Source: a virus
Length of the DNA: 23,589 nucleotides
Reading direction: 5' to 3' (one strand)
IMG/VR virus record: IMGVR_UViG_3300009502_000207
Location: 1 to 23,589 of that record
The notes under the pieces were generated by a model. That model saw only the letters and a program-made list of their open reading frames with translations, ran no database searches and was not told the origin of the DNA. Positions 3,966 to 22,011 of this stretch are shown here, one piece after another (positions within the stretch are counted from its first letter, which is position 1; each line of letters opens with the position of its first letter). Made by a program: the position numbers and the translations under genes.

Positions 3966-4208
3966 TTATTTATGAAGCTCGGCAATGATGTTGATTAAAA
4001 AATACTGCAAATCAAAAAACTCTGGATCCACAGCTTCGCGCGAAAAGCATCCTTCGGCCGCATTCATGGCGATAACGCCTTGCGAAATGGTACAAATGCT
4101 TTCGAGAGCGGGTTGTTGTTTGATTTCTTTAAGGATTTCGATCAGGTTACTGGTAAGGTGTAATCCTTCTACTTCAATTTTTGGTGAATTTTTGTCATTG
4201 TGTGACAT
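3966..4208 (-). CDS. Hypothetical protein, first gene of the small-gene unit
   Basis: An 80-residue, mostly helical acidic protein of unknown function. It is the first gene behind the folded leader RNA at 4228-4347. Its ribosome binding site is unusually clear for this genome: AGGAG lies about 10 nt before the ATG and directly follows the U-run of the leader stem. A leader structure that changes access to AGGAG, or ends transcription at the U-run, would control the whole unit down to 2405. The pattern of one Cys pair and several Ile/Leu heptads suggests a small helical bundle. Confidence 0.65.
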   Translation of the reverse strand: MSHNDKNSPKIEVEGLHLTSNLIEILKEIKQQPALESICTISQGVIAMNAAEGCFSREAVDPEFFDLQYFLINIIAELHK

Positions 4209-4227
4209 TGGTTGTATCTCCTAAAAA

Positions 4228-4301
4228 AGGAAGTTCCTCTGGCGTTACCGGTGATCAGACCGTCACCAACCCTTGCGGGTGGCGAACCAGAGGAACTTCC
4301 T
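4228..4301 (-). ncRNA. Structured leader RNA: three-way junction with GNRA tetraloop and U-run
   Basis: On the minus strand a perfect 15-bp stem (arms 4301-4287 and 4242-4228) encloses two hairpins. One is ACCC-GCAA-GGGT (4280-4269), which has a GNRA tetraloop. The other is GGTGA/TCACC (4267-4263 with 4254-4250). The outer stem is followed at once by six T, then AGGAG and the first gene. The leader's 5' end contains GCGTTAC (4347-4341), complementary to GTAACGC in the junction (4248-4242). It also has a second copy of GATCACC (4335-4329) that could compete for GGTGA. These pairings allow alternative folds. The GNRA loop forms only on the minus strand, which argues for RNA function in the sense of the operon. 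I do not recognise a known riboswitch class; an attenuator or a small stable RNA are both possible. Confidence 0.55.
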
Positions 4302-4349
4302 CTATTAAGATTAATGGTTGTCAACATGGGTGATCGTTAAGTAACGCTG

Positions 4350-4382
4350 CAAATATACAAACAATGAAATAGCAAATGCAAA
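4350..4382 (-). promoter_or_regulatory. Host-like promoter of the small-gene unit
   Basis: TATATTTG (4357-4350) matches the Bacteroidota -7 consensus TAnnTTTG. TTTG at 4382-4379 could be the -33 element, with a 21-nt spacer. It lacks the GTCCTTTCA element of the late promoters. The expected start near 4343-4347 gives a leader of about 135 nt before the ATG at 4208. A short inverted repeat (CGTTA/TAACG, 4335-4346) sits at the start point and could be an operator or part of the leader fold. Confidence 0.5.
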
Positions 4383-5403: not shown

Positions 5404-6141
5404 TTAATTTGCCGTTCCCAAATAGCGGTAACTCAGATTAAATTGCAATAGCGGCATCCCGAACATCCGGATAACCTGAAAATTCAGTTTAGAAACAGAT
5501 ATCGGAATATTAAGTTTCTTCAGATAGCGATGATAAATGAATTCAGTATGCGGGTTCTTATCCGGGTTCATGAACACATCGTGGTCGATGTGCCAGTAAA
5601 AGTCCGCAACTTTATCAATCAGGTCCTGAGTCCCATGTTCCCATATATCAGAACATGCTCCCTGGTCGAGAAACTGCGAATGTGGTGAAACATACAGCCT
5701 GTCGCTTTGATATTCCCATGGATCGAACTTTGAAATATAATTCAGATCCATCCTGCACACAAATATACGGTCATACGGTCCATATTTCTTTGCCAGGTTC
5801 ACCGACTTGCGGCAGCTCTCAAATGCGATCTTAAGGCAGTAAGGATTATGCCCCCTGTTCCATCCGGGTATCGGTAAAACGCTTCTCTGGTGTTCTACCA
5901 GCATATCCTTTGGCTTGTATATGCGGATGATCTCTTCCTGGTTGATGGGTTTGCGTGCTTCTTCAAGAAGTTTATTATTGCCTTCCATTTTCACCCACCA
6001 GCTGTCATTTGTATTCGACGTCTCACTCCATGTATGGATGAAGATATCACCAGGTGCCTGGTTGAATACATTATTAAAAAAGTTCTGATAAGTTTGCTTG
6101 TACGTGCGTACGTGGCCGAGAAAACAATATGCAATTTTCAT
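5404..6141 (-). CDS. Glycosyltransferase-like protein
   Basis: A 245-residue soluble protein with the layout of a small nucleotide-sugar transferase. It opens with MKIAYCFLGHVRTY, like the ISGHLRT start of an exopolysaccharide-type family. DIFIHTW follows at residues 32-38 and RMDL at 130-133; the latter occupies the usual position of the acidic metal/nucleotide-sugar motif. HTEFIYHRYL lies near residue 204. No membrane segment is seen, so it should act in the cytoplasm. It lies directly after the lysis genes and may glycosylate a virion protein or alter a host surface glycan. The acceptor and sugar cannot be read from the sequence. The family call is moderate; the transferase reaction is inferred. 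Confidence 0.65.
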   Translation of the reverse strand: MKIAYCFLGHVRTYKQTYQNFFNNVFNQAPGDIFIHTWSETSNTNDSWWVKMEGNNKLLEEARKPINQEEIIRIYKPKDMLVEHQRSVLPIPGWNRGHNPYCLKIAFESCRKSVNLAKKYGPYDRIFVCRMDLNYISKFDPWEYQSDRLYVSPHSQFLDQGACSDIWEHGTQDLIDKVADFYWHIDHDVFMNPDKNPHTEFIYHRYLKKLNIPISVSKLNFQVIRMFGMPLLQFNLSYRYLGTAN

Positions 6142-14649: not shown

Positions 14650-14773
14650 ACCTTTTCCAACATATAAATCAATCTCATGCCATGCTAATGGCATACAGTT
14701 TAATATTAGAATCACATGCATTAGGGATTGAAATGGCATCCTTTTAAAGTAAAAGATATAATGTAAAGCCCGG

Positions 14774-14790
14774 CTCAGTCATGGACTGAG
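14774..14790 (-). terminator. Weak candidate terminator after the large terminase gene
   Basis: CTCAGTC and GACTGAG form a 7-bp stem with a 3-nt loop about 9 nt after the TerL stop. Only CCGGGCTTT follows on the minus strand, so termination would be inefficient, or the hairpin protects the mRNA 3' end. Confidence 0.35.
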
Positions 14791-19045: not shown

Positions 19046-19861
19046 CTAAGAACGGCTTTGTTCGATAAATTTCCATGCCACAGGTGATGTACCTGTTTTG
19101 ATTGCTTTCACTGTTAAAACAGCTCCGGCAATGCCTGTCCATGAAGTTCCATTTCTCAAAACAAAGTCGATACCGGCGATTACTGAAGGATGAGAACCAC
19201 CACTACCCAGGATGCTGTACATATTTCCATCAACGGCATTTGTCATTGTTGTAATTGTAGCAGCATTTGTACCACCATCAGTTAACTGATAACGGCCTTC
19301 ACCATTTGTAACATCAATTACTGTGGCATCTGCATCAACTGTATCGGTTACTGCATCATAAGTGAGTGTTCCATTATAATCAGCATGTACCGGTCCTTTA
19401 AGGAGTGATTTATATTCCATCGTTTTCTTTTTCTTATCCTTATCATTCACTCCTTTGGAGGTTAACTGCAGCGGAGCTTCAGGGGCTCCGTGCAATGTTT
19501 TTGCAGCTGTTGTCATTTTTTCAATGATGATACCACAGTTCCTGTTTTTCCAATTTTCAATGAACTCACGTATTTCAGTTGAATCACCGGGATGATCAAA
19601 AGCTACTGTCTGAATTGTTGATTTTGCATCCGGATCACCATCTGTATCATCATTTACTGCAATGCTTGTGATTTCAGCATAGAGGGTTATCATATAAGCA
19701 TTCGGCTTGAATATGATATTATCGTTGATTACAATACCTTTGGAATCGCGTGCGGGATATGTTAACACGTCATCGAGATCGAAAACGGTTATTTTGTTCT
19801 TCTTGTCTCCACCGGTTCCGGGATTGGCATCGGCTTTTGCGACTGATACTTTTGTATACAT
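19046..19861 (-). CDS. Virion structural protein sharing a C-terminal domain with the capsid protein
   Basis: A 271-residue protein with two parts. Residues 1-~165 form a beta-rich domain with VFDLDDVLTYPARDSKGIVI near the start and FDHPGDSTEIREFIENWKNR in the middle. I have seen this type in Bacteroidota phage structural clusters, without a firm function; tail tube and decoration protein are both plausible. Residues ~185-271 carry a domain with ITTMTNAVDGNMYSILGSGG, SHPSVIAGIDFVLRNG and an end WKFIEQSR. This matches the two tandem C-terminal units of the neighbouring capsid protein. The gene follows the capsid gene by 26 nt and ends at a strong terminator, implying high co-expression with it. 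Confidence 0.75.
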   Translation of the reverse strand: MYTKVSVAKADANPGTGGDKKNKITVFDLDDVLTYPARDSKGIVINDNIIFKPNAYMITLYAEITSIAVNDDTDGDPDAKSTIQTVAFDHPGDSTEIREFIENWKNRNCGIIIEKMTTAAKTLHGAPEAPLQLTSKGVNDKDKKKKTMEYKSLLKGPVHADYNGTLTYDAVTDTVDADATVIDVTNGEGRYQLTDGGTNAATITTMTNAVDGNMYSILGSGGSHPSVIAGIDFVLRNGTSWTGIAGAVLTVKAIKTGTSPVAWKFIEQSRS

Positions 19862-19887
19862 GATAATTTAATTTTAAAGATTAATAA

Positions 19888-22011
19888 TTATCCCCTGGCA
19901 ATTTCATAGAATTTGTCATCAACTTCCGATTTCTGCAAGTCGATATAAACACCGCTGGTGAGTGTTATATTAGCAGTAAGTACAAAGTTTCCTGCATTTT
20001 CTATAACAGTAGGATTGGTATCGCTTCCGCCATAGATTCTGTACACTTTGCTGTAAACGGCTTCATCTAACGTAGTAATCTTAACATCAGCCAGAGGTGA
20101 TGTAGTATTGGGACTGGTTACGAAAATACTTCCATCACTTACATCAGGAGTGGTATCATTAGCTGGAATTACAATGGCATCTGATGTTGAATTGATCCTT
20201 GCCAATTCTATAAATTTGCCATCAGAACGTTTTTTCAGGATAAGAATATCATTCAGATCCGGATTCCATGCTGCAGACAACAGACTGAATTTAGCGGATT
20301 GTGCTATTGTAGGTGCATTGGTTACATTACCACATTTTAAGCGGACTTCTTGTCCAACGGCACAATCTGTGATATCAGTAATTACAGTGGCCTGTGAGTT
20401 GGCTACAGAAACTAAAGAAGTATGATTCAACACACTTGGCGTAGTATCATTCTTAGTCATCGGGATGTAATAATCGGCAGGTTCGTCTACATCATTAGTA
20501 AAGATCATCTGGGTTGAATAATCATCAGGCATTTCAGCGGCAGATGCAAATTTCTTACCTGTCATGATTGCCCATACAGATTCTTTCCAATTACTCCATA
20601 CCTTGATGGTCCAGTCCTTCAGTTCAATTTTAAACCTGGTCATTTCTCCGGGCTGATCTTCGAACAGGCGGATATTCCCATCAATGGTCCAGATCATTCT
20701 CTGAGATTCATTCATACCCGGTATTGGAATGATTTTTACCTGAGGATATTCAGCAACATACATCAAATCGGCTTTATAATCCTGATTCAAACCATATAAA
20801 GTTTCACGGTTTTTGTGATATTTCACCAGGGCAGCCGGCGACATATATAATACAATATTTCCGGAATCTCTCAAAACTGCAGGGATCATACCGGTTGCTG
20901 TATAAATATAATTGGAAATTGTGGAAGCAGTCCATTCTCCGATGGCAAATGGTTTTACTTTGAAAAGAGCAATCTGATTCTTAATGAACTTTCTTAAACC
21001 ATTGGCAGCTTCCATGGCGGTTCCGGCTACATTTGCTGTAGGGTTTTTCCTTACACCATTAATACGGCGGGTCTGTTGTTCATTGAGTAATACCTTAGCT
21101 GTTTCAACCAAGATATATTCAATGAAACTCATTTTTATAGGATCAGATCCTTCGCGGTTAAGATAACCAATCCATGTTTTTTCCAATGTTTTCAGATCGC
21201 GGAAAACTTTGGCAAACATTACATCATACATCTGAAGGATTTCAGGTTCGAGCTTGTATTCACCTTTGGAAACGTTTTCAAAATCACTTATGATGGTATT
21301 GTCTGCCTGCGAAAATTCACCCATGAATAAATTCACGAGCACGGCCTGATCCTGGTAATTGGATTCCAACGGGAAAATGGTTTCAAGGTTCGGAAGGCTC
21401 TGAACAAAACTCTGAATACGATTCTGTTTCCTTACCCTGTAATATTCACCCAGGTCGGTTTTCAAAGATTCATAATCAATATCGGTTGCGGCCGGTACCG
21501 TGTGAATCATTCCTTTTCTTGACATTATGGATGCATAAGCCCTGCGGTTATATGCATGCTTTTCATCAATGGCCATGAAAGGTTCTTTAATTCCCAAAAG
21601 AAATTTATCATCCATTTCATTGATTTGCGGATCCGAACCGGCACCACCACGACCACCTGCAGGGGGATCATTTTCGCTTCTTCCTGCAAGCGTATTTACA
21701 GCTCCCTGGAGAGTTGTGATTGTGGCCTGCATCTGTGTGATGCTTGTCTGTGTTGCCGTGCGATCACTTTGCAATGAAGTCAACTCAGCCCGGGCAGTAT
21801 TGAGTTGCTGAACCAGATTCAGATATTCTCCCGCCATGTTATCATCGCCACTACTTTCTGATTTTCCAAGAAGCTCAACAAAACGTGCGGTAAAATCTTC
21901 ACCGAACTGGGCGGCTACTTTTGCACGCTCTTCATCCGTGAGGTACTCCTTTCCTTCGGGTGTTTTGGCGAAAGCCTGGATGACTAAAAACGCTAAGATT
22001 AATTTTTTCAT
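19888..22011 (-). CDS. Major capsid protein with N-terminal scaffold part and duplicated C-terminal domain
   Basis: A 707-residue protein, long for a capsid protein. Residues 1-~130 are scaffold-like: a hydrophobic start (MKKLILAFLVIQAFAKTPEG), a coiled coil (about 60-110) and a Gly/Pro-rich hinge (PPAGGRGGAGSDP), probably removed by the S49 protease encoded just upstream. The middle (~130-510) fits an HK97-fold capsid core. The C-terminus holds two related ~85-residue units (521-605 and 618-707), both starting NDTTPxV and ending KFxEIAR, probably surface-exposed beta domains. The start resembles a signal peptide, but the following residues are charged helix and export is unlikely. HK97 identity is inferred from size, scaffold-protease context and position. 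Confidence 0.82.
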   Translation of the reverse strand: MKKLILAFLVIQAFAKTPEGKEYLTDEERAKVAAQFGEDFTARFVELLGKSESSGDDNMAGEYLNLVQQLNTARAELTSLQSDRTATQTSITQMQATITTLQGAVNTLAGRSENDPPAGGRGGAGSDPQINEMDDKFLLGIKEPFMAIDEKHAYNRRAYASIMSRKGMIHTVPAATDIDYESLKTDLGEYYRVRKQNRIQSFVQSLPNLETIFPLESNYQDQAVLVNLFMGEFSQADNTIISDFENVSKGEYKLEPEILQMYDVMFAKVFRDLKTLEKTWIGYLNREGSDPIKMSFIEYILVETAKVLLNEQQTRRINGVRKNPTANVAGTAMEAANGLRKFIKNQIALFKVKPFAIGEWTASTISNYIYTATGMIPAVLRDSGNIVLYMSPAALVKYHKNRETLYGLNQDYKADLMYVAEYPQVKIIPIPGMNESQRMIWTIDGNIRLFEDQPGEMTRFKIELKDWTIKVWSNWKESVWAIMTGKKFASAAEMPDDYSTQMIFTNDVDEPADYYIPMTKNDTTPSVLNHTSLVSVANSQATVITDITDCAVGQEVRLKCGNVTNAPTIAQSAKFSLLSAAWNPDLNDILILKKRSDGKFIELARINSTSDAIVIPANDTTPDVSDGSIFVTSPNTTSPLADVKITTLDEAVYSKVYRIYGGSDTNPTVIENAGNFVLTANITLTSGVYIDLQKSEVDDKFYEIARG

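Follow-up and report, generated by a model that had tools for sequence, protein, structure and literature searches.

In translational attenuators of the erm and cat type, a leader ORF precedes a main gene whose Shine–Dalgarno (SD) sequence is hidden in a stem, and the 5′ arm has an alternative hairpin. We know of no attenuator of this type with a docking pseudoknot. In the control of the plasmid gene repZ, a loop pairs with a partner that lies directly upstream of the main gene (PMC8383071). Upstream reading frames (uORFs) can act either way: in M. tuberculosis, metE is repressed by one such frame and ppe2 requires another (PMC11260477).

Here, we describe an RNA leader of a gene in a Bacteroidota phage that, by analogy, would work like the repY/repZ or erm leaders, outside those families. 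It lies in a window of 23,589 nucleotides, the whole stretch of DNA analysed (IMG/VR record IMGVR_UViG_3300009502_000207). Like ColIb-P9 repY–repZ, the leader has a reading frame of its own, a U-turn loop that would form a pseudoknot with a distant strand, and a downstream gene whose translation would be controlled, and the loop motif UUGGCG occurs in several members of the new family. Unlike the plasmid system, the new family belongs to phages, a strand of a three-way junction takes part in the pseudoknot, and the partner of the loop in the window (4335–4331) lies 5′ of the uORF, 123–127 nt before the main ATG. We saw no antisense promoter in the phage leaders and claim no sequence homology. 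We consider repZ control the closest apparent working analogue, not a system to which the leader belongs, given its different geometry, and the likeness of its U-turn loop to plasmid copy control is likely convergence. With the erm/cat attenuators, the window leader shares the leader ORF, the stem-hidden SD and a 5′ arm that can fold into an alternative hairpin, but its uORF crosses the whole stem and overlaps the main start, and there is no antibiotic link.

Results

The minus strand of the window carries, in order from 4382 to 4208, a promoter, a leader of ~141 nt, an AGGAG SD sequence and an 80-aa ORF; the leader (4349–4209) thus lies between a Bacteroidota-type promoter and the ORF. All features of the leader given below are on this strand. 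The promoter, TTTG-N21-TATATTTG (4350–4382), is the only exact match in the window, with 1.3 expected by chance. The main gene (3966–4208), the first of the tail-region genes, encodes an 80-aa product that matches no Pfam or PHROG family. The terminase of the phage is related to those of Flavobacterium phages such as 6H and of Cellulophaga phage Ingeline (Duneviridae). Elsewhere in the window, just past the terminase gene and on the opposite strand, positions 14716–14779 (plus strand) match the Rfam Flavo-1 RNA at 44.2 bits (threshold 42). Positions 4355–4366, in the promoter region, are complementary at 11 of 12 bases to 4206–4217, in the region of the main start; a transcript from further upstream may pair these segments, and the match may be due to chance.

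The leader has a minimum free energy of −60.1 kcal/mol, as compared with −35.3 ± 3.95 for shuffled sequences (z −6.3; 0/200). Its predicted fold is the three-way junction of the original prediction, the elements of which are all present: a perfect 15-bp stem (4301–4287 with 4242–4228) enclosing a GCAA-capped hairpin and a second hairpin, then U6 (4228–4223) and AGGAG (4222–4218), with two copies of GATCACC and stem arms that are each near-palindromes. In the predicted fold, the 5′ arm T5 (AGAGGAAGUUCCUCUGGU, 4286–4303) pairs with the 3′ arm T3 (GCCAGAGGAACUUCCUUU, 4226–4243). Between them lie hairpin 1 (4263–4285; tetraloop at 4276–4273), hairpin 2 (4249–4262), whose loop CUGAUC has a YUNR sequence of the U-turn type, and the junction strand GUAAC (4244–4248), which is left unpaired. 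T5 can also form a hairpin of its own (−6.6 kcal/mol versus a shuffled mean of −1.15). The stem extends outward beyond the part first described, with UCUUAA (4305–4310) pairing with UUAGGA (4224–4219), so that most of the main SD (4218–4222) is itself paired in the predicted fold (probability of being unpaired, 0.02–0.06 for AGGA).

Eleven related leaders were found in phage contigs and Bacteroidales genomes, the window making twelve. The first homolog, L126, came from the intergenic gaps of terminase relatives. R1, a covariance model of the window alone, recovers L126 (34.3 bits) and finds L066 (21.9 bits) and L166, from a Prolixibacteraceae MAG contig (40.2 bits). A docking-first descriptor scan added L182 and L222, and a pattern made from the two stem arms and the SD alone added L255, L256, L257 and L262, of which L256 and L262 are close relatives counted separately among the twelve. 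R2, a model of five leaders with the window left out, matches the window at 39.6 bits (E 5e-6) and found L274 and L275 in Bacteroidales genomes. A direct DNA search of phage records with the leader returned nothing relevant, and protein searches with the 80-aa product, the L126 product and the neighbours gave no new relatives. An initial palindrome pattern gave, in a comparison run, matches with no leader similarity beyond the pattern itself; only one of the 34 matches of a further search was real, L147, on the same contig as L126; and the candidate L276 was not confirmed as a further member. A genome search with R1 gave no match even in a genome that holds a member, and this negative result was discarded; genome searching loses weak matches, and the twelve leaders are no estimate of frequency in genomes.

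All twelve leaders share one order of elements: a −7 box, docking part a, a linker of 2–6 nt, docking part b, the uORF start, the 5′ arm, hairpin 1, hairpin 2, the junction strand, the 3′ arm and the SD. The −7 box (TAnnTTTG) lies 51–89 nt upstream of the 5′ arm in each. The 5′ arm can form its own hairpin in 12/12 leaders (−4.9 to −6.8 kcal/mol versus shuffled means of −0.8 to −1.9), and YUNR occurs in the hairpin-2 loop of all ten leaders scored. In the six predicted folds examined, the SD is paired, wholly or in part, with the base of the stem; in L166 and L182 this pairing is only partial.

The original prediction turned on whether homologous loci show compensatory changes in the stems, and such changes are present. 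In the alignment A10, 96.2% of cells are paired when the docking helices are included in the structure, and 18 pairs are changed on both sides, as compared with 6.8 in shuffles (0/500); sliding the partners by 1–3 columns lowers pairing to 42–56%. Five of the six pairs of the hairpin-1 helix covary. In docking part a, each of the five pairs has changes on both sides; most of part b is constant within A10, with variation between more distant leaders. Conservation of unpaired sequence is almost confined to the 5′ arm, the hairpin-1 tetraloop and the U-turn loop. No family of Rfam 15 reaches its gathering threshold at the window leader or at L256, in agreement with the earlier impression that the RNA belongs to no known class. 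HDV-like, twister, tRNA-like, 6S-like and mobile-repeat readings were dropped on topology, the models run being those of Rfam and a tRNA scan. The structure and the family are well supported, and comparison of the twelve leaders points to an undescribed family of translational switches.

The 5′ end of the leader had been noted, correctly, to be complementary to the junction (GCGTTAC, 4347–4341, with 4248–4242), which was taken to imply mutually exclusive folds. Since the three-way-junction fold, obtained with programs that do not model pseudoknots, leaves GUAAC and the hairpin-2 loop free, pairing with the 5′ strand need not exclude the junction. Docking part a, GUUAC (4341–4345), can pair with the junction strand (4248–4244), and docking part b, GAUCA (4331–4335), with the hairpin-2 loop (4257–4253). 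Judged by sequence comparison, the competing pairing is better described as a conserved docking pseudoknot, mainly compatible with the junction; it is the conserved local hairpin of the 5′ arm that provides a true alternative fold.

Both docking contacts can form in 12/12 leaders, with compensatory changes. Across ten leaders, the leader's own docking strand gives 10–13 matched bases, a level that shuffled leaders reach in 0–8 of 2000 trials (the window scores 10; 1/2000), and docking in L274 and L275 reaches a score of 12 in each. When leaders and cores were swapped, the mean docking score was 2.4. A score of at least 9 was reached by 9/90 combinations, eight of which joined leaders with a common GCG core in the hairpin-2 loop. 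Because the window and L126 served to frame the docking rule, the first statistics are partly post hoc. L066, L166, L255, L256, L257 and L262 were fetched by queries without the docking strand; R2, which fetched L274 and L275, includes this strand as unpaired sequence; and L182 and L222, having been selected by docking, are no independent test of it.

A feature absent from the original prediction is the uORF, which in the window encodes 52 aa (4169–4327), spans the whole structure and runs past the main start in a different frame. Counterparts of 37–68 aa occur in 12/12 leaders, each open through the entire structure and overlapping the main start. They begin after the docking strand in every leader (1–5 nt 3′ of part b in the ten scored) and end 4–82 nt beyond the start of the main gene, always in a frame other than that of this gene, so that tight coupling is not uniform across leaders. 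The other two frames are closed in all leaders except for one frame in L255. In dinucleotide shuffles, six leaders have a joint chance of such openness of 2.4e-5 and the other six one of 2.8e-4, figures that close relatives make optimistic. The start codon is AUG in ten leaders and UUG in L257 and L275; in L275, where no AUG lies near the docking strand, the UUG ~15 nt away was read from the sequence and the choice of start is our own. Frameshifting between the uORF and the main ORF was rejected because their relative frame is not constant among leaders.

The genes behind the leaders vary. The small proteins downstream of L182 and L166 are similar (27% identity), and those of L126 (18%) and the window (13%) are too distant for a claim of homology. 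A protein with a P22_AR_N antirepressor domain is encoded by the first gene in L256 and L262 and by the second in L274; a similar reading frame downstream of L066 and L255 was judged by eye rather than by domain scan.

Related phages also carry leaders of another type, S1-A-S2, in which, after a Bacteroidota promoter, the RNA 5′ end repeats the first codons of a small gene further downstream. Both the 5′ end and these codons are complementary, over up to 18 nt, to an internal antisense segment. Sixteen sites reach the score threshold, versus 0–4 in shuffles of 14600 sites; they include L087 5935, L099 4970, L100 5172, L096 6154, L076 19722, L077 12485, L089 5878 and 6245, L098 12752, and L121 38297 (Cellulophaga phage Ingeline_1). 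These leaders resemble that of the window in promoter type, in a 5′ strand that pairs with a segment inside a long stem and in the small gene downstream; they differ in the additional complementarity of their internal segment to the first codons of the gene, and a search of the window for such an antisense to the main start codons found none. Both leader types seem to be present on contig G026 (L182 at 19826–19904 and L221 on the minus strand). L190 (14688–14820) and L191 carry a further antisense-to-start leader, in which the 5′ strand contains GCTTACACAAC, the stem includes the complement of this sequence and the gene has ATGCTTACACAACC. In L088, positions 5922–5988 (minus strand) match the Rfam DUF3800-VIII RNA, just past an ORF that ends at 5914.

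Discussion

We propose, as somewhat more likely than not, that the leader is a cis-acting translational attenuator of a phage gene: docking would block the uORF, and translation of the uORF would open the SD-hiding stem. The transcript would begin just before 4347, the three-way junction would form, and the base of its long stem is predicted by folding to pair the SD of the main gene. The 5′-proximal strand would then dock onto the junction strand and the hairpin-2 loop, stabilizing the closed state and occupying the site where ribosomes land for the uORF, the start codon of which is a few nucleotides downstream. When the strand is undocked, ribosomes would translate the uORF through the long stem and open it; the 5′ arm could refold as its own hairpin, the main SD would be exposed, and the main gene would be translated by coupling or by reinitiation near the uORF stop. 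Comparison of the leaders shows the junction, the docking helices and the conserved open uORF; we infer an OFF role for docking, an activating role for the uORF and a signal to which docking responds.

The same RNA may be wired differently, which we hold to be a minority possibility: docking might activate, like the pseudoknot of repZ, uORF translation might repress by occupying the main start, or the U-turn loop in hairpin 2 might be the target of an antisense RNA acting in trans. The ColIb-P9 repZ switch works through U-turn loops and a pseudoknot (PMC8383071), and UUGGCG, present in several hairpin-2 loops, is named in the title of a ColIb-P9 paper, which appears as a reference entry in PMC10724649. 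However, the docking partner is 5′ of the uORF, far from the main start, and from the 5′ arm to 120 nt into the main gene no TAnnTTTG box for an antisense RNA occurs on the opposite strand in the 12 leaders. It is improbable that the uORF is instead a real small-protein gene and that the RNA structure acts in messenger stability or pausing, with no part in switching. The open frame is kept in 12/12 leaders and some of the peptides look alike, but their similarity follows the conserved arm sequences, they are otherwise divergent, and docking and SD pairing would be left without a role.

A transcription attenuator or terminated small RNA, which the original prediction had offered among its readings, has in its favour the long stem followed by U6 in the window and a switch predicted by prefix folding between 110 and 115 nt. 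However, the window alone has a U-run ahead of the SD: in the 11 relatives it is not kept, their Us sit inside the stem and the stem continues into the SD, which makes termination very unlikely. A terminator scan found none either, though its loop limit of 8 would miss a loop this large. The suggestion of a riboswitch-like attenuator fared better in part, as covariation bears out a folded cis-regulatory leader of an undescribed class. Its ligand-binding component does not fit: a compact junction with a pseudoknot in a leader is what a metabolite-binding riboswitch might look like, yet the little conserved unpaired sequence, the varied phage cargo genes and the lack of an Rfam match make one most improbable. 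That the locus is a DNA element (an operator or repeat) is hardly credible despite its near-palindromic arms, since the contig contains one copy of the structure, conservation is of pairing and not of sequence, the strand and the positions of promoter, uORF and SD are fixed, and the covariation in the docking helices contradicts it.

Building on the translational attenuator reading, we suggest, tentatively and with more doubt than confidence, a new kind of phage RNA switch of modular design: a plug strand at the 5′ end would dock into a three-way junction and thereby gate a leader ORF and, via this ORF, the phage genes downstream, some of the P22_AR_N antirepressor type, in response to translation capacity or a phage signal. 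To our knowledge, little post-transcriptional control has been described in Bacteroidota phages. The leaders add to these phages a structured regulatory RNA family that is absent from Rfam 15, and the device, compact and present in several phage and MAG contigs, would drive different cargo genes, including some with an antirepressor-type domain.
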